Positions 50,713-60,200 of a DNA stretch of 64,000 nucleotides are shown in pieces. The stretch's first letter is position 1. Every line of letters begins with the position of its first letter. The stretch is from Marinoscillum pacificum. Lineage in GTDB: Bacteria > Bacteroidota > Bacteroidia > Cytophagales > Cyclobacteriaceae. Location of the stretch: the NCBI RefSeq assembly GCF_024714495.1, contig NZ_JAMZMJ010000007.1, forward strand, positions 124,001 to 188,000, given 5' to 3'. The position numbers and the translations under genes are program-made. The notes under the pieces were generated by a model. That model saw only the letters and a list, made by a program, of their open reading frames with translations. It had not been told where the DNA came from and ran no database searches.

Positions 50713-51500
50713 TTGATGAGCTAAAGATAGCACTGATCCAATCTGATTTGCATTGGGAAAATGTGGAGGCCAATCTGGCCATGTTTGAAGAGAAGATCTG
50801 GACATTGAAACATCCGGTAGATGTAATAGTGCTACCGGAAATGTTTACCACTGGGTTTTCTATGAATGCAAAGGAGTTAGCGGAAGTTCATAAGACGAAA
50901 ACCTTTAAGTGGATGCAGCAACAAGCTGCTCAGACCAAAGCTATAGTCATTGGAAGTGCTATTATTAAAGAAGGTGAGCCCATCTACAATAGACTATATG
51001 CCGTATATCCTGATGGTAGTTTTCATCACTATGACAAAAAACATCGGTTTGGCTTAGCAGGAGAGGATCAGGATTATACTGCTGGAAAAAGTCGGGTTAT
51101 TATCGACGTGAAAGGCTGGAAAATCATGCCTTTGATTTGCTATGATCTTCGTTTCCCCGTGTGGGCTCGATCCAGAAGTTCACAAGAAAGCTTATTTGAA
51201 TATGATGCCCTAATCTATGTCGCAAATTGGCCGGAGCCAAGAGTGAATGCATGGGATGCATTGTTGACAGCTCGAGCAATAGAAAACACTTCGTATTGTA
51301 TAGGTGTTAATCGAGTAGGAGAAGATGGAGTAGGTGCGCATTATGTTGGGCATTCGGCAGCCTACAATTATAAAGGAGAGCAATTGGCATTTTCGGTGGA
51401 GGAAGAAATACTCTACGCTATTTTAACCAAAGAAGATCTATTGGCATTCAGGAAGCGATTTCCTTTCCAGGCAGATGCAGATGACTTTGAGTTGAAGTAA
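50709..51500 (+). CDS. Nitrilase-family amidohydrolase (omega-amidase-like)
   Basis: A 263-residue carbon-nitrogen hydrolase. The catalytic triad is Glu in VIVLPEMFTTGF (about residue 44), Lys in YDKKHRFG and Cys in MPLICYDLRFPVW. The opening ALIQSDLHWENVEANLAMFEE and the size match the YafV/omega-amidase branch, which hydrolyses 2-oxoglutaramate-type amides. It starts at a GTG that overlaps the def stop (GTGA). It ends the ruvX-def operon. Confidence 0.92.
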   Translation: MIDELKIALIQSDLHWENVEANLAMFEEKIWTLKHPVDVIVLPEMFTTGFSMNAKELAEVHKTKTFKWMQQQAAQTKAIVIGSAIIKEGEPIYNRLYAVYPDGSFHHYDKKHRFGLAGEDQDYTAGKSRVIIDVKGWKIMPLICYDLRFPVWARSRSSQESLFEYDALIYVANWPEPRVNAWDALLTARAIENTSYCIGVNRVGEDGVGAHYVGHSAAYNYKGEQLAFSVEEEILYAILTKEDLLAFRKRFPFQADADDFELK

Positions 51501-51527
51501 CCACAGAGAAGCTAAGAAAACAGAGAA

Positions 51528-51911
51528 TTAATATTTTTCAATCTCCTTGTTTAGTTCATTTCGATTAATAATTTTTCCTTTCATTCTTATCATAAATGGT
51601 TTCGTAGCTTGAATATCATTCAGCGCCAATAATTGGAGATTTTGATGTCTGATGGTTTGGTTCAGAATGGTTGAAGCTTTCCCAAGGGTTGCAGATTCTT
51701 CACCAGTTAGTATAATTGCCAGTTTCTCAGATTTGACTAGATCTGAGGCGTAACTCAATGTTACTGCGTCAGAGAAGTTGTCCATTTCCAATATGTTCGT
51801 TTCTGATCCGATCACTTCTTTAATTTGATTAACTAATGAATCATCAAAATTGAATGCATGAGCATCAGTTAAGAAGTGAATGATGATCAAACTGGATGGA
51901 TGTTGGCTCAT
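51528..51911 (-). CDS. Hypothetical protein, 127 residues
   Basis: A soluble 127-residue protein on the opposite strand between the nitrilase and murF genes. The sequence SLIIIHFLTDAHAFNFDD near the N-terminus, LAIILTGEESATLGKASTIL in the middle and PFMIRMKGKIINRNELNKEI at the end suggest an alpha/beta fold. No motif that I recognise and no signal peptide is present. The reading frame is convergent with the nitrilase gene and divergent from murF. Codon use is like its neighbours, so it is probably real. Confidence 0.55.
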   Translation of the reverse strand: MSQHPSSLIIIHFLTDAHAFNFDDSLVNQIKEVIGSETNILEMDNFSDAVTLSYASDLVKSEKLAIILTGEESATLGKASTILNQTIRHQNLQLLALNDIQATKPFMIRMKGKIINRNELNKEIEKY

Positions 51912-51942
51912 TACGAATGTTGAGAGATATATTTGCTAATCT

Positions 51943-53217
51943 ATGACAAGCTTCATCGAATTTCTATATTCTCGGTTTTTATTGAGTGACGGTGTGTCCA
52001 TCGATACACGAACTATCACTAAAGGGAATCTCTACTTTGCACTGAAAGGACCAAACTTCAATGCGAATAAGTACGCTATTCAAGCACTAGAACTTGGTGC
52101 AGCCTATGCTGTAGTAGATGAAGAAGAATATGTTACCGATGAGCGAATCATTCTTGCTGATGACGCACAGAAGGCTTTACAAGATCTGGCGACTTTTCAT
52201 AGAAGCAGATTCAAAAGACCCGTTTTAGGTCTTACTGGCTCGAATGGGAAGACTACTACCAAAGAACTCGTAAATCGGGTTTTAGCTACTAAATACATTA
52301 CTCATGCGACAAAGGGTAATCTGAACAATCATTTAGGTGTGCCTCTAACGCTCTTACACATTCATCCACAAGTAGAAATTGCCATAATAGAGATGGGTGC
52401 GAATCATGTGGGAGAAATAGCAGAGCTGTGCGGCTATGCCAACCCGACGCATGGATTGATTACCAACATTGGCGAAGCACATACCGAGTTGTTTGGAGGT
52501 ATAGAAGGTGTCCTGAGAGGGAAAAGTGAGTTGTTTGATCACTTACGCCAAACAGGCAGTAAAGCATTTATTAATGTGGATGATTTCCGATTGGAGAATA
52601 TGGCTAAGCGATTTGCGGATCCGGTTTTGTTCCCGGCGGAAGACTTAAAACTCATTGATGCTAACCCCTATTTGATGATCAAGTTGGGTGAAAAGGAAGT
52701 GCAGACCAATCTGGTAGGGAGATATAATTATGGAAACATCGCTGCGGCAGTAGCTGTTGGTCGAGAGTTCGGTGTTGCTGATGATCAGATTCTAGAAGCA
52801 ATCGCGTCGTACATTCCAGAAAATCAACGATCTCAGGTCATTAAAAAAGATTCGGTAACGATCATCAATGATTGCTACAATGCCAACCCTACTTCCATGA
52901 AAGCTGCTTTGGACAATCTGGAGTCGATGACAGGAAAAAAAGCGGTCATTCTCGGTGAAATGAAAGAATTACAAGATGCTGTGGACCGCCATTTGGATGT
53001 AGGCCGCTGGATCAAGCAAGCAAATTTTGATCAGGTGATATTGGTTGGGCGCCACATGATAGCCGCTGAGCAATTGCTGGAAAATGTCTACTGGTTTGAA
53101 ACCGTAGAAGCCGCTCGTCCATTCCTGGAAAAGCGAAATTTTAAAGATCACACAGTCTTAATCAAAGGCTCTCGAAGTGGTAAGCTGGATAAGGTAGCTG
53201 ATATGGTCAGTGGCTGA
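51943..53217 (+). CDS. murF: UDP-N-acetylmuramoyl-tripeptide--D-alanyl-D-alanine ligase
   Basis: A 424-residue Mur ligase that adds D-Ala-D-Ala to the UDP-MurNAc-tripeptide. Domain 1 starts with SDGVSIDTRTITKGNLYFALKG. The P-loop is GLTGSNGKTTTKE at about 95-107. MurF-specific features include ATKGNLNNHLGVPLTLL, IEMGANHVGEIAELC and NDCYNANPTSMKAAL. The C-terminal domain ends in VLIKGSRSGKLDKVADMVSG. The codons for this tail are repeated in degenerate form at 56893-57009, beyond the large surface protein gene. Confidence 0.96.
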   Translation: MTSFIEFLYSRFLLSDGVSIDTRTITKGNLYFALKGPNFNANKYAIQALELGAAYAVVDEEEYVTDERIILADDAQKALQDLATFHRSRFKRPVLGLTGSNGKTTTKELVNRVLATKYITHATKGNLNNHLGVPLTLLHIHPQVEIAIIEMGANHVGEIAELCGYANPTHGLITNIGEAHTELFGGIEGVLRGKSELFDHLRQTGSKAFINVDDFRLENMAKRFADPVLFPAEDLKLIDANPYLMIKLGEKEVQTNLVGRYNYGNIAAAVAVGREFGVADDQILEAIASYIPENQRSQVIKKDSVTIINDCYNANPTSMKAALDNLESMTGKKAVILGEMKELQDAVDRHLDVGRWIKQANFDQVILVGRHMIAAEQLLENVYWFETVEAARPFLEKRNFKDHTVLIKGSRSGKLDKVADMVSG

Positions 53218-53300
53218 TTATTAGTTTGACTGGTAATAATTGTGGTTAGTTGTATTTGAGCAAGAATAAATTTCATTTATCCTTGTAGTTAAGTGCGATT
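53104..53300 (+). repeat. Direct repeat copy A: murF 3' end plus downstream DNA
   Basis: This segment is the last ~38 codons of murF and ~80 bp beyond the stop. It aligns without gaps through the stop codon with 56896-57009 (offset 3792 bp), and beyond it with a few gaps up to about 57092, for example AGTTGTATTTGA, AGAATAAATTT and ATTTATCCTTGT. Over the last 55 bases up to the stop I count 44 identities. The 208-bp gap between murF and the surface gene is otherwise AT-rich and without a gene. Confidence 0.85.
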
Positions 53301-53425
53301 TAGTTAAATCCACTTCATGTCATTTAATGATAACTAATGCCTTAACCTTACCAAATCAGCAACTCCTTAAGTAGACCTGGAAGTTCATTTAAGCATTTCT
53401 GATTGGTATACAACCAGCCATTTCT

Positions 53426-56400
53426 ATGAAAAGATTTTCTTTATTATTCATTTTCGGACTTTCTTTTTTATCACATTTAGTAATTGCTCAAGAGGAGCAG
53501 CGTGCTTTCATAACCACCTGGAAGACTGATAATGATGGGCCTTCTGAGGATAACCAGATTATAATTCCAACAATATCAGCACCAACCTTTATCTATGATT
53601 ATAATATTTATTGGGAAAAAATTGACGATTCTTCCATTAATGGTGTAGTCACTGGTATTACTGGTAATTACACAATTGACTTTCCTTCTTCAGGTATCTA
53701 TAGGGTAGAGATTACCGGACAATTTCCTGCGATTGAGTTTGGAAGATTAAACAAATACGACTCTAAAAAAATTCTAACAATAGAGCAGTGGGGAGAAATA
53801 GAGTGGCAAACCATGTCTTTTGCTTTTGCTCACTGTAAAAATCTAAGAATTACAGCTATTGATTCTCCTGATTTAACAGAGGTAAGTTCGTTAAGTTACA
53901 TGTTTAGTAATGCCACTTCGATGAACGACTCAATTGGACATTGGGATGTAAGTCATATAGAAGTTCTGGAGGGGATGTTTAGTGAAGCCACAAATTTCAA
54001 TCAACCGATTGGACAATGGAAAGTTGATTCGGTAAATACATTGAATTATTTATTTCGTAGCGCAAGCAGTTTTAATCAGGATCTCAGTTTATGGGATGTT
54101 AGCAATGTAGAAATAATGACAAGTGTATTTTGGAACAGTGGGTTTAATCAGCCATTAGATACATGGGATGTAAGCAATGTCAAATATATGAACAGCATGT
54201 TTCGAGATGCTCAAAATTTCAACCAAGACCTCAGTTCATGGGATGTTTCTTCCGTAGAGCAGATGAATTTAATGTTTGCAGGAGCCGAAGAATTTGATCA
54301 GGACCTTAGTCAGTGGGATATTTCAAATGTTTGGAGATTTAACAATATTTTTGATAATAGTGGGCTTGGAAGTGATAATTATGATCAATTGTTAATGTCA
54401 TGGTCACAGTTAGATAGTTTGCAAAATGATGTGTCATTCGGAGCTCAAGGATTGGGATTTTGTCATGGAACGCATGCTAGGCTTTTATTAATGAGGCAAT
54501 TCGGTTGGACATTTTCTGGAGATACCCAGGAATGTTATTTTGAATCATTAGAAGGAAGAAGTGCAAGTGTCATGACTCAGGTTGGAGATCAAGTTTATTT
54601 TGGCTTAGGCAGTAATAATGACGAATATTTTTCTGATTGGTTTCTGCTCGGTTCCCCTTTAACATTTAGAGATTCTTTTCCAGGAGTTCCTAGAAGAGAA
54701 GCATCAATTTTCTCATTGGATTCAATAATTTATGTTGGGTTGGGAAAAGATTCAACCGGTCTTTATCTTGGTGACTTCTTTGCATATGACACTAGGGTTG
54801 ATGTTTGGACTGAATTATCTGAATTCTCAGGGGCAGAAAGAGCGAATGCTACTGAATTTGTTCTAAATGGAAGTGCTTATATTGGAACTGGTGTTAACGA
54901 GGGTGGAGAATTAGCAGATTTTTGGAGATACGATGTTCAAAAGGATGTTTGGGAAGAATTAAGTGATTGGGGTGAAAACGCTAGACAAGGGGCTTTTTCT
55001 TTTGTTTTAGATAATAAGGCCTATGTTGGGGGAGGGTTTTATGGAGACACATCAATACAACTATTTGATTTACATGAGTATGATCCAAACACTGAAATTT
55101 GGGAATTTAAATTACAAAATCAAACAATGCTTGGTTTAAGTAATGCGGCTTCTTTTGACATGAACGGTATAGGATATGTTGCTTATGGGAACACTCGGAA
55201 AATAGTTGGGTATAATGCTTTTTTCAATGAATTGATTGATTTTGGTGATACCTTATCTCTAGGCTCCAATTTGACGGATCCATTAGTTTTTATTTCTGAA
55301 GATAGTGCCATTTTTTGTTGGGGCAACAAATACAATACTGGTGATCTTTATTTGATGGATTTTCTAAGTTTTGTGGATAAGAATGAAAATCCATCAGAAC
55401 TTTATTTAAGTGATTCATTGGTAGATGAAAATTCTGATTCTTTGAAATATATAGGAACTTTATCAAGTTTTGATAGCGATAGGGTTCGTCTACCTGAATA
55501 TAGTATTTTAAATACAACATCTGAAGGAGCTAACTTTACCATTTCTAGAGATTCACTATTCTCTTCAATAGTTTTTAACTATGAACTAGATTCTTCTTAC
55601 AATATTGAGTTGAGAGTAAGTGATTCTAGAGGAGGTTTTTTTGATAAAGCCATTTCAATTTATGTAAATGATCAGAATGAAGCACCAACCTCTATATCCC
55701 TATCCAATACTTTAGTTGAGGAATCGAATGCTGAGACGGTACTTGTTGGAACCCTTTCATCAGAGGATGAAGATAACGGCGATACTTTCACATATACTAT
55801 TGTGTCTGGTGATGGTACTAATGACGTTGATAATGATCAGTTCACGATCACGGATGATCAGCTTTCACTGATTAGTCCAAATTTTGAGGAACAATCAAGC
55901 TATGTGGTGAATTTAGAAGTAACTGATAGTGGCGGAGAGACCTATGTCGAATCATTTACGATAGTGGTTAGTGATGTAAATGAAGCGCCAACCTCTATAT
56001 CCCTGTCCAATACTTCTGTTGAGGAATCGAATACTGAGACGGTACTTGTTGGAACCTTTTCATCAGAGGATGAAGATAACGGCGACACTTTCACATATAC
56101 TATTGTGTCTGGTGATGGCACTAATGATGTTGATAATGATCAGTTTACAATTACGGATGATGAGCTTTCTTTGATCAATCCAGACTATGAAGAGCAAGCT
56201 AGATATTTGGTGAATATAGAAGTTGCTGATGCTGGAGGGCTAATTTTAGCACAATCTTTTGTAGTGGATGTGACAGACCTCAACGAATCTCCAACCGACA
56301 TTCTATTCACTGTGGAGGAGATTTTCGAAGAAGATATCATTGGAACTCTTGCGGGAACATTTGAGACGGTCGATGAAGATGCCGATCAGACCTTTACTTA

Positions 56401-56812
56401 TACGTTTGATGTTCCATCAGATACATTTGAAATTGTTGATGACTCGTTATTTACAAAAGCAGAATTTGATTTCTTATCAGATCAGACGTATTCTATTACA
56501 GTTACAAGTACTGATCAGGGAGATTCTTCCTTCACAAAATCTTTTGAAGTACTTGTGATTGATATGGCAGAGCCAGTTGTATTAGGTGATAAAACTAATA
56601 AGCTATTAGTCTACCCTAACCCAGTTCAAAACCAGCTCCATGTACAATATGATGGAGTGACTAAATTGGAAGCATTTGATCTCTCTGGTATATTAGTTGC
56701 TGAGAGTGACAAGGAGAAATTCCTCGATACATCCAATTGGAACTCCGGAGTCTATATTCTTCGAATATGGGTTGGAGATGAATCTAAGGATGTCAAAATC
56801 ATCAAGAAATAA
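53426..56812 (+). CDS. Large T9SS-secreted surface protein: BspA-like, Kelch-like and cadherin-like domains
   Basis: A 1128-residue exported protein with a signal peptide (LLFIFGLSFLSHLVIAQ). An N-terminal beta region is followed by BspA/DUF285-type repeats (about 150-310) with a unit of ~23-25 residues such as SFNQDLSLWDVSNVEIM and NFNQDLSSWDVSSVEQM. A Kelch-like region (about 370-640) has blades such as RYDVQKDVWEELSDW. Three cadherin-like Ig domains follow (about 660-1040), two of them from a nearly identical 303-bp tandem repeat. The end is a type A T9SS domain (LLVYPNPVQNQLHV ... LRIWVGDESKDVKIIKK). It is likely to be an adhesin on the cell surface. Confidence 0.87.
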   Translation: MKRFSLLFIFGLSFLSHLVIAQEEQRAFITTWKTDNDGPSEDNQIIIPTISAPTFIYDYNIYWEKIDDSSINGVVTGITGNYTIDFPSSGIYRVEITGQFPAIEFGRLNKYDSKKILTIEQWGEIEWQTMSFAFAHCKNLRITAIDSPDLTEVSSLSYMFSNATSMNDSIGHWDVSHIEVLEGMFSEATNFNQPIGQWKVDSVNTLNYLFRSASSFNQDLSLWDVSNVEIMTSVFWNSGFNQPLDTWDVSNVKYMNSMFRDAQNFNQDLSSWDVSSVEQMNLMFAGAEEFDQDLSQWDISNVWRFNNIFDNSGLGSDNYDQLLMSWSQLDSLQNDVSFGAQGLGFCHGTHARLLLMRQFGWTFSGDTQECYFESLEGRSASVMTQVGDQVYFGLGSNNDEYFSDWFLLGSPLTFRDSFPGVPRREASIFSLDSIIYVGLGKDSTGLYLGDFFAYDTRVDVWTELSEFSGAERANATEFVLNGSAYIGTGVNEGGELADFWRYDVQKDVWEELSDWGENARQGAFSFVLDNKAYVGGGFYGDTSIQLFDLHEYDPNTEIWEFKLQNQTMLGLSNAASFDMNGIGYVAYGNTRKIVGYNAFFNELIDFGDTLSLGSNLTDPLVFISEDSAIFCWGNKYNTGDLYLMDFLSFVDKNENPSELYLSDSLVDENSDSLKYIGTLSSFDSDRVRLPEYSILNTTSEGANFTISRDSLFSSIVFNYELDSSYNIELRVSDSRGGFFDKAISIYVNDQNEAPTSISLSNTLVEESNAETVLVGTLSSEDEDNGDTFTYTIVSGDGTNDVDNDQFTITDDQLSLISPNFEEQSSYVVNLEVTDSGGETYVESFTIVVSDVNEAPTSISLSNTSVEESNTETVLVGTFSSEDEDNGDTFTYTIVSGDGTNDVDNDQFTITDDELSLINPDYEEQARYLVNIEVADAGGLILAQSFVVDVTDLNESPTDILFTVEEIFEEDIIGTLAGTFETVDEDADQTFTYTFDVPSDTFEIVDDSLFTKAEFDFLSDQTYSITVTSTDQGDSSFTKSFEVLVIDMAEPVVLGDKTNKLLVYPNPVQNQLHVQYDGVTKLEAFDLSGILVAESDKEKFLDTSNWNSGVYILRIWVGDESKDVKIIKK
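55679..56284 (+). repeat. Tandem 303-bp repeat encoding cadherin-like domains
   Basis: Two adjacent units, 55679-55981 and 55982-56284, each encode 101 residues beginning EAPTSISLSNT. They differ by scattered, mostly synonymous substitutions in the first ~200 bp and diverge more towards the end. The pair shows a recent in-frame duplication that lengthened the stalk of the surface protein. Confidence 0.9.
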
Positions 56813-56820
56813 ACAAACAG

Positions 56821-56849
56821 AAAAGGCTTGCCATCGGCAAGCCTTTTTT
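56821..56849 (+). terminator. Terminator of the surface protein gene
   Basis: GGCTTGCC and GGCAAGCC form an 8-bp stem with a 3-base loop, followed by a run of six T residues, 12 bp after the stop codon. Confidence 0.9.
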
Positions 56850-56892
56850 CGTTTAGATAAGTGAATATATGTTTGCTCATATAAGTTAGGTT

Positions 56893-57009
56893 AGTGTAGA
56901 AGCTCCACATCTATTCTTACCACAGCTATATTTCAAAGATCATAAAGCCTTAATAAATGGCTCGCGAGGTGGCAAGCTGCATAGGGTTGCTGATATGATC
57001 AATGGTTGA
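56893..57009 (+). pseudogene. murF: Decayed 3'-terminal fragment of murF
   Basis: In the frame at 56893 the DNA reads VEAPHLFLPQLYFKDHKAL, then INGSRGGKLHRVADMING and a stop. The true murF tail reads VEAARPFLEKRNFKDHTVL, then IKGSRSGKLDKVADMVSG and a stop. The last ~39 codons are therefore preserved in frame without indels, with both silent and amino-acid changes, but nothing upstream of ~56890 looks like murF. It has no start and is not expected to be expressed as an enzyme. This is the only recognisable coding trace in the 399-bp interval 56813-57211. Confidence 0.8.
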
Positions 57010-57092
57010 AATGTAGTTTGATTGGCGAAAAATTCTTTGGTAGTTGTATTTGAAGAAGAATAAATTTGATTTATCCTTGTGGATAACTTTGT
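56896..57092 (+). repeat. Direct repeat copy B: murF-tail remnant plus downstream DNA
   Basis: Copy B of the direct repeat whose copy A is at 53104-53300. It extends about 80 bp past the remnant stop codon with shared blocks (TAGTTGTATTTGA, AGAATAAATTTGATTTATCCTTGT). Both copies are followed after 120-140 bp by the start of a large signal-peptide gene, so a promoter may have been duplicated with them. Confidence 0.8.
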
Positions 57093-57211
57093 TTTAAACA
57101 ACGCCAACAGCTATGATTAACTATACACTACAATTCAGGGAATAACTGCATTTCGCATACCTTATATTCCAACTACATATTTTCTTAACCAGTATTTCTT
57201 AACCAACTCTC

Positions 57212-60200
57212 ATGAGAATGTCTATGCCCAACCTAAGATATTCAATGATCTTAGCGTCATTTTTCTTCCTTACGAAAGCTTTTTCGCAAATAAGTCTTCC
57301 ATACTATCAAAATTTTGATGGTGTAGCTGAAATATCCTATACTACGGATACCGATACTCTTAACGAAATCAATGAATGGGGCTTTGCTGCCGCAAGAGAT
57401 GATTCAGAAAGATTAGGTGGTTTACTTATGATAGGTTCAACTAATGGATTTCAAGGGTCACAATCCGTTAATCTAAGCAGGAATACTGATCATAATAATT
57501 CTCAATATGTAACCAATTCAGCTGTCCTAACTTTAGATCTTTCTGGCTATGATGCGAATACGACTGATATCTTTTTGGATTTCAGCTTTACTAGAGGGAA
57601 TTTATCTTATTCGAATAGTAATAATGTAAGAATCAAAGGCTCACCATCAGAAAACAATATAGTGATATACGATTGGGATGCTAATCTTCCGAATTATTTA
57701 GAATGGAAAAATGTCAAAAGACTCAATTTGAGTCAGGCATTAAGAAATGCAGGCCAAAATTTTTCTGACTCTACTCAAATTAGGTTCGTTGAACGGTCGT
57801 ATAGTAATACTCATGCTTTCTATTTTGATGAAGTAACTATATATGAGCGTCCAATTAATGATGTGCGTGTTACTGAAATTGACTTACCATCTGCGTCAGG
57901 TTCGCTCACATCTGCTGAAGAATTAAGTGTTTCTATTATTAATGATGGAACAAGTGATTTGACGAGTGTTCCACTCACTATTAAGGTGGAAGGTCCTGGA
58001 GTCACGGAGACAATCTCGGAAACAGCGTCTATGAGTGCCATTTCAACATCCGAAACTTATACCTATACATTTAGTCATTTATTTGACTTATCAGAGCCTG
58101 GAACCTATGATGTAACAGCGTATAGCTCACTTGCAGGAGATACTAGTTATTTTAATGATACGATTTTTAGTGTCACTTATAAGTATTCCACGTATAGTGC
58201 AGGATTGCCATATTCAGAGGATTTTGAATCAAATAATGGTGGATTTATTGGTTATGGTAATAATAGTAGTTGGGAGTATGGTGACTTATCAGATGGCTCC
58301 AAAGGTTGGGTAACTAATGCTTCTGGTAATTATAACAATAGCGAATATTCTTATTTATTATCACCAATATTTGATTTATCCGCCGAAACCTCAGATCCCT
58401 ATATCGGATTCGATATAGACTTTAATACTGAGTCTTGTTGTGATGAATTTTGGCTAGAAGTTAGTTTAGATGGAGGTATAACTTTTTCAAAAGTTGTATC
58501 TCCTCAGCTTCAATATACGTCAAACGAAAATTATTGGAATGGAGTAGGGAGCCTAAGTTTTAGTGAAATGCTTATTACTGGGACTGGAGGTAATTCTGAA
58601 GTAATGCTTCGCATCGCTTTTGATTCGGATGGATCAGTAATAAATCCTGGAATTGAAGTTGATAATTTTACTATTACAAGTAAACCGGCTAATGACGTTT
58701 CCTTAGAAGCTATAGGATTACCTCAAGCATCCACAGAATTATCATCCACCGAATCAATATCATTAGATGTAGTTAATTTAGGTACAGGGGGGCAGAGTTC
58801 TGTTCCCATTTCTATAGTATTCACTAGTCCTTCAGGTGTACAGACTTACTCTGAGAATACTCCTGCTATATCTTCAGGGGATACAATTACCTACACTTTT
58901 TCTCAACAATTCGATTTTTCTGAGGTTGGGAATTATTCTGTGACTGCTTATACATCCCTTGCAACAGATACATATAATGAGTTAGATACCATACGAAATC
59001 AAAGAAGTTACCATCAAGGAAAGTACGAAGGGGACTTGCCTTTATTCTATTCATTTAATGCTGAGAATGATACTATTATTTATGATGGTACGGCTTTTTT
59101 TGGAACTGAAGACTTAATTGGGGTAAGTTATTTGTCTGAAGGGATAAATGGTCAATTAAGGGTCAACTCAACATATGCAGAAGATGGAAAGTCACTAATA
59201 CTTAGCAGATCAGAATATAGTAATCAGGGAACTTTAAATCAGCTTTTAATTTCTGCGGATCTATCTAGTTATTCTGCAAGCTCGGATAAAGTGTTGTTCG
59301 ACTATAATGTTCGAACTTATTATGAAGGGACTTCTAGCGCTGGTGTATATGTTAGAGGAAGTGAGAGTGACCCATGGGTATTACTACATCAATGGGATCG
59401 CAATTATTCGGCAAATAGTGTTTGGCAAAAATATCAATCATTAGATATTTCAGCTGTCCTGGTTGCAAATAGTCAAGATTTTAGTTCCACTTCGCAGATT
59501 AAGGTTCAATCTATTGGTAATTCTGAATACCCATATGATTACGTCTCTTTTGATAATATACGTATATATTCTGAGCCTGTTAATGAATTGCAATTGCTCA
59601 ATATTGTCGTTAGCGAGGGGCCATTTTATTCTAGCTCTGAGTCTCTTCAGGTAGAAGTAATTAATAATGGAACAGCAACACAAACAAGTATACCAATCTC
59701 TTTCAATATAGAAGGACCCAATGGCTCTTCCACTTTTAATGAAGTATTGGTTGGTAGCTTAGCTGAAGGTGACACAACACTTTTGGATATTGCGGAATCA
59801 ATAGATTTTAGTGTGCCTGGAGCATATTCAATTACAGGTGCTTTAGGTTTAAGTGGTGATGAGTGGTTAGAAAACGACACTCTTACTGTGACTGTGGGTA
59901 GCTACTCAAAATATACAGGTGAATTGCCATATTACTTGACCTTAGAAGGATTAGCCGATACTACATATGCCCCCGGACAGTATACAATGGATGGATTGGA
60001 CGGAATATCATTTGAAGGGTCAACTTCTAAGTCGAGATTATCCATATTGGACGCAAACTATTATTATGGAACGGGTTCACAGGCACTAAAATTTGATAGA
60101 AGAGACTACTCTTATTCTTCCAATGAAATGGTTTTATCATTGGACTTAAGTGATTTAGATGATACTCAAGATCGGTTACTATTAGATTTTCAAGTTTATA

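Follow-up and report, generated by a model that had tools for sequence, protein, structure and literature searches.

A decayed copy of the murF 3' end beside a large surface-protein gene of Marinoscillum pacificum as a possible scar of stacking recombination

In the effector-immunity arrays of the type VI secretion system (T6SS), as described by Kirchberger (2017; PMC5361080), a new module comes to lie beside the old one and the old 3' end is displaced downstream. Rhs loci, as cited in the same paper, carry displaced 3' ends too, and homology-facilitated illegitimate recombination is proposed there as the route by which such ends arise (PMC5361080). As far as the available parts of these accounts go, transformation of Streptococcus pneumoniae yields merodiploids with repeat-bordered duplications of ~100-900 kb via unequal pairing (PMC3784515), and surface proteins of Porphyromonas gingivalis, some of them with a type IX sorting domain, are diversified by allelic exchange and gene conversion (PMC5266723). 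Here we describe a locus in a 64,000-nucleotide stretch of the Marinoscillum pacificum genome (contig NZ_JAMZMJ010000007.1, positions 124,001 to 188,000; hereafter the window), in which the 3' end of the housekeeping gene murF recurs behind a very large surface-protein gene. P. gingivalis belongs to the same phylum as this bacterium. We give an even chance to the reading that the repeat is the scar of additive ('stacking') recombination at a slot for surface genes, bounded by murF on one side and a terminator on the other. A literature search, covering titles and abstract beginnings and few subscription papers, returned no murF or sorting-domain scar of this kind.

The repeat itself is clear. 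A sequence search of the 6.40-Mb genome matched 53104-53292 to 56896-57086 with 77% identity (E 9.1e-34), the second copy lying 3,792 bp downstream of the first, and with 53104-53300 as query these were the only two places with E <= 0.001. An earlier reading of the window from its letters (the sequence-only reading) had reported such a recurrence at this distance, in frame, without indels and up to the same stop codon, with one large gene between the copies. All of this is borne out, except that the repeated coding part, put at about 39 codons, comes to 37 codons and the stop, with 87 of 114 bases identical when 53104-53300 is aligned with the second copy. The onset is sharp at the GTA codon at 53104 (murF codon 388), upstream of which the likeness ends at once. 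Past the murF stop ~75 bp are also repeated, matching in 17 of 31 columns, then in 39 of 44 (53247-53290), and falling to 57 of 137 thereafter. Between the copies stands a single long open reading frame (ORF), here called surface gene 1; apart from a few ORFs of 60-76 amino acids (aa) that overlap it in other frames, the ORF list holds no separate small gene there. When 53200-53430 was searched in six genomes of the genus, only short matches (E 0.015 or worse) were found besides the two copies, and Rfam gave no match over gathering scores on 51000-58500. The second copy, which we call the stub, is followed by surface gene 2, whose end lies outside the window (Table 1). The products of both surface genes are most likely exported through the type IX secretion system (T9SS): the type A sorting domain TIGR04183 is present in each (42.0 and 37.7 bits, cut-off 23). 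Judged by eye only, their starts look hydrophobic.

Table 1. Features of the murF locus in window coordinates, followed by the repeats of two comparable loci elsewhere in the genome.
Feature	Position	Strand	Evidence and remarks
murF (UDP-N-acetylmuramoyl-tripeptide--D-alanyl-D-alanine ligase), intact	51943..53217	+	TIGR01143 363.9 bits, cut-off 288.6; 67-91% identical in 5 congeners
Repeated murF 3' end, 37 codons + stop	53104..53217	+	sequence search, codon alignment
Promoter-like block copy 1, 3' of murF	53247..53290	+	TTTG-N19-TATCCTTG at 53255-53285; 39/44 identical to copy 2
Surface gene 1, 1,128 aa	53426..56812	+	DUF285, Kelch, cadherin-like, T9SS type A sorting domain; signal-like start by eye
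Surface gene 1 3' block	56735..56864	+	last 25 codons, stop, terminator, ~15 bp flank; 96% identical to the surface gene 2 end (C30:189783-189912, outside the window)
Filler, 31 bp	56865..56895	.	between terminator flank and murF stub; no visible murF likeness
murF stub (decayed 3'-end copy)	56896..57009	+	in frame to same stop
Promoter-like block copy 2	57041..57084	+	motif at 57049-57079; upstream of surface gene 2
Surface gene 2, 2,882 aa	57212..64000, ends C30:189860 beyond window	+	CARDB match, cadherin-like region common with gene 1, T9SS type A sorting domain
gapA-locus repeats	G000:C22:270930-271064 and 279139-279272		L155 6930-7064 and 15139-15272
C11 repeats	G000:C11:234056-234299 and 235560-235803		in L252

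Comparison with relatives points to an insertion. murF was present in 39 of 39 genomes searched, including the window's own (G000; G001, G003 and G004 are congeners, and C-numbers are contigs), and we compared its neighbourhood by ORF lists in 16 relatives, five of the same genus. In G003, the nearest relative compared (murF 91% identical), murF leads directly to a terminator, behind which comes a DUF5777 gene, and there is no surface gene. In the genome of the window the counterparts of this terminator and DUF5777 gene stand after surface gene 2, with the DUF5777 gene on the opposite strand. Therefore, both surface genes are placed between murF and the terminator that once followed it, which supports the insertion at the murF 3' end proposed by the sequence-only reading, as does the finding that the order murF, surface gene, remnant occurs in none of the five congeners. 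G004 likewise has no surface gene behind murF and its region is rearranged, and the remaining three congeners have different murF neighbours. Two side observations were made here. In G004 (L044, G004:C59; 1991-2150 of the reverse complement), ~500 bp behind murF, there is a 161-column match (73%) to a gene of the DUF5777-side block, which falls in no listed ORF of 100 aa or more. The record PBTY01000040.1 (L060) is titled as a Rickettsiales metagenome-assembled genome, yet its murF shares 93% identity with the window's murF, and the title looks wrong.

The two surface genes have like flanks and unlike bodies: identity is 76% in the murF tail, 89% in the promoter-like block and 96% in the 3' block, compared to 34% of residues in the bodies, which align only over residues 724-1128 of gene 1 (415 columns). 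Before the 3' block, third positions are alike in 146 of 402 cases (summed over the first 22 windows of the body alignment), and DNA identity in 20-codon windows then rises from 0.58 through 0.82 to 1.00 toward the gene ends. The last 130 bp differ at five positions, two of them among the 52 non-coding bases; they include a terminator hairpin (-22.4 kcal/mol, z -6.0) and ~15 bp past it, sequence that is proper to the murF site. There is no third copy of this block in the genome, the third row in the search being the hairpin's other strand. The 3' blocks are far less diverged than the stub (5/130 vs 27/111, Fisher p 2e-6), so that the surface-gene 3' ends must have been made alike, or joined, after the stub arose. 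The earlier judgement that a fresh duplication would not leave copies so diverged holds for the stub; the near-identical 3' ends were out of reach of that reading, since surface gene 2 ends outside the window.

The 44-base promoter-like block is the best-kept part of the murF repeat. A TTTG-N19-TATCCTTG pair, one mismatch from the Bacteroidota consensus, sits at the equivalent place in both blocks. Such conservation is expected if surface gene 2 depends on the block. Matches to the motif in the window are no commoner than in shuffled sequence (14 vs 13.99), and only the shared position counts. The suggestion of the sequence-only reading that the two surface genes share a promoter copy is therefore supported in part, by the common place of the pair and the 39 of 44 identities, although the motif on its own lends it nothing.

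Because the flanks are alike and the bodies are not, a plain duplication fits the locus less well than two stacked versions of one slot. The first version would have consisted of the murF end, a promoter, gene 1, a sorting-domain end and a terminator, and it would have been joined to a second version of promoter, gene 2, end and terminator, carried on a fragment that began inside murF near codon 388. Homologous recombination might have made the join on one side, while a join without homology on the other would have left the 31 bp of filler. The truncated murF end, carried along without use, would then have decayed, while the promoter behind it would have been retained, since gene 2 needs one. 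Later gene conversion could have made the 3' ends of both genes alike again.

The same anatomy could have come about by tandem duplication of the murF end, the promoter and one surface gene, after which one body was replaced or reshuffled. Such an origin is economical, as one step yields the stub, the second promoter and the second terminator, and it agrees both with the grouping of the stub with the genome's own murF (see below) and with surface genes that are distant paralogues over 415 columns. We nonetheless find it doubtful, since the unconstrained DNA of the stub is still 76% identical to murF while the shared parts of the bodies match at only 34% of residues. Bodies that stemmed from the same duplication ought to be about as alike as the stub, so that they would have to have been replaced wholesale.

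The origin of the stub bears on whether the repeat was copied here or brought in. Among 110 murF loci (30 from one search, own included, and 80 from another) the nearest to the stub is the genome's own murF (87 of 114 bases), followed by G003 (75) and G004 (62). When the differences are polarised by G003 and G004, 25 of 105 bases differ, with 15 changes on the stub, 3 on murF and 7 ambiguous. The stub-branch changes are distributed 4:6:5 over codon positions 1, 2 and 3, compared to 35:8:157 between the working murF genes of G000 and G003; this profile has p 0.95 under equal positions, and 1 of 1,000,000 draws was as far off under the murF profile. Since they ignore codon position, the changes look like decay after coding ceased. 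In a tree of five sequences, the stub groups with its own murF (bootstrap 93; branch 0.248 vs 0.044). Placing it outside G000 and G003 gives p 0.035-0.044 in the approximately unbiased (AU) test under three models, which the Kishino-Hasegawa (KH, 0.076-0.086) and Shimodaira-Hasegawa (SH, 0.16-0.19) tests do not reject, and at more distant places the AU value is below 0.01. These sequence comparisons make it most likely that the stub was copied from the murF end of this very lineage and decayed afterwards.

These results do not support the suggestion of the sequence-only reading that foreign DNA bearing a related murF tail entered recently. Joins of that sort do occur in this genome: on C11, an E1-type dehydrogenase gene has its last 81 codons repeated behind an ORF of 331 codons, stop included, and the copies differ 1:1:17 by codon position, which implies that the tails diverged as working tails in two lineages before joining. 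The ORF between them is lipoprotein-like and has no Pfam match (sequence without the first codon), and in G003 the flank behind the dehydrogenase gene showed no match to the C11 insert over 470 bases. The murF stub, however, differs 8:8:11 from murF, its nearest sequence is the genome's own murF, with which it groups, and the live murF tail shows no significant excess divergence from G003, so that we consider a recent foreign entry unlikely. The same comparison with G003 served to test whether a donor tail had replaced that of the live murF, and it was not significant (29/37 vs 149/254, Fisher p 0.28).

Several points weigh against stacking at a surface-gene slot. The 3' blocks are less diverged than the stub, and a second event is therefore needed. 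The tree was built from 105 bases; of four rival placements, the two most distant are the only ones that the KH and SH tests reject, and a stub placed beside G003 alone gets AU values of 0.10-0.12. The stub itself lacks the two-lineage signature seen on C11. A single surface gene behind murF was found in none of the five other genus genomes (no conspecific genome was among the six compared), so a slot with alternative versions is something that we infer. Finally, gain here is preferred to loss in G003 on the strength of two relatives, of which one is rearranged, and the last codons of the G003 murF (MIKE) slightly resemble the surface-gene ends (IIKK), which a deletion in G003 could explain. 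This resemblance is what speaks for a history in which the surface genes stood behind murF ancestrally and both G003 and G004 deleted them. We regard such a history as very unlikely, given that it requires two losses and that the third-position distance from the stub to its own murF (10/35) is below that from murF to G003 (16/35), small numbers in both cases.

The murF scar is not the only one in this genome. On C22, an insert of ~8 kb (a histidine kinase, a LytTR regulator and a DUF285 surface gene) lies between gapA, named by eye, and a 204-aa 4HB_MCP-type gene, flanked by 135-bp copies (96%) of the 3' end of the 204-aa gene. The two host genes adjoin in G003, G004 and G001, and the G003 sequence is unbroken through the insertion site. 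The layout is thus the same as at murF, with a repeat on either side of the insert and an unbroken site in G003. Because both copies share states that differ from G003, the insertion looks like a young event in this lineage, so far as the sequences tell. The genome therefore holds both kinds of scar, the own-lineage copy and the two-lineage join.

A strict scan of 1.649 Mb of the genome found five such layouts: two hold a surface gene, two a transposase-type ORF (C22:142270 and C26:247621, the latter Y1_Tnp) and one the lipoprotein-like ORF of C11. The ORF at C22:142270 is presumably IS256-like, again by eye. The same scan of 80 murF loci (1.40 Mb, G003 and G001 contigs included) gave one case (L083, at a gene other than murF) and that of 23 stretches from relatives (0.30 Mb) none, samples that differ in kind and whose counts are not comparable as rates. 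We had considered that the scar might be special to surface genes and rejected this, as only two of the five layouts hold one. Six DUF285 genes are present in the genome, of which two are bracketed by gene-end copies; the C14 stretch starts at a contig end and could hide a further case. Integration of a site-specific element at the murF 3' end, also raised by the sequence-only reading, would account for a direct repeat at a gene 3' end with murF left whole, yet it is highly improbable, as a domain search of the one long ORF between the copies found no recombinase domain, the repeat contains the promoter-like block, and the repeats at murF, the gapA locus and C11 (compared by reading, not alignment) are ends of different genes.

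Some neighbouring cases are recorded as side observations. The Y1_Tnp ORF on C26 lies between 133-bp copies (91%) of the neighbour gene's 3' end and downstream DNA (L156 15621-15753 and 16453-16585), and is near a DUF285 surface gene and a PorP/SprF gene. At two further loci (L154 6160-6445 and 14328-14613; L158 9190-9438 and 16079-16327), neighbouring large genes have ~250-290 bp of coding sequence in common (73-74%), located toward their 3' ends. On G003:C105 (L160 2161-2233 and 9032-9102), tandem giant genes have a common 73-bp leader (90%) that runs into the start codon; the genes differ at their beginnings, and the leader is another copied 5' region.

Taken further, the genome might repeatedly add accessory genes, type IX surface genes among them, behind host genes by one-sided recombination that copies ~70-245 bp of the host-gene end together with any promoter behind it. 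Arrays of surface proteins would then be built by stacking versions of a slot, and stubs would date each addition. We put this forward as a rather unlikely generalization. The locus itself bears on how a marine member of the Bacteroidota assembles arrays of very large surface proteins. Such scars are datable, with stub decay as a clock and unbroken sites in relatives giving the direction of change. What stays when the bodies of surface genes differ can be read from the promoter-like block and the 3' ends that they share. If the pattern holds across strains, transformation-like stacking as opposed to tandem duplication becomes testable.

How does this locus compare to described systems? As in Rhs and T6SS arrays, a shared upstream anchor (here the murF end and the promoter-like block) is followed by unlike downstream modules. 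Unlike in those arrays, the displaced end is that of a housekeeping gene which is not part of the module, and it has decayed; there is no separate small gene of the immunity type, the promoter-like block is copied as well, and the contents are type IX surface proteins. The pneumococcal merodiploids share the repeat-bordered duplication, whereas here it spans ~4 kb and the bodies differ. With P. gingivalis the likeness lies in surface proteins diversified by recombination, although there domains or alleles are exchanged, without a gene-end scar in the available part of that account (PMC5266723). Homology-facilitated illegitimate recombination, as outlined in the part of PMC3240628 drawn on here, would give both the layout and the filler through one homologous and one non-homologous join, a likeness that we infer from the anatomy of the locus alone. 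The murF locus is thus an insertion site and exemplifies a recombination scar of a sort already known, to which it adds further clues in the form of a copied promoter-like block, renewed 3' ends and unbroken sites in relatives.

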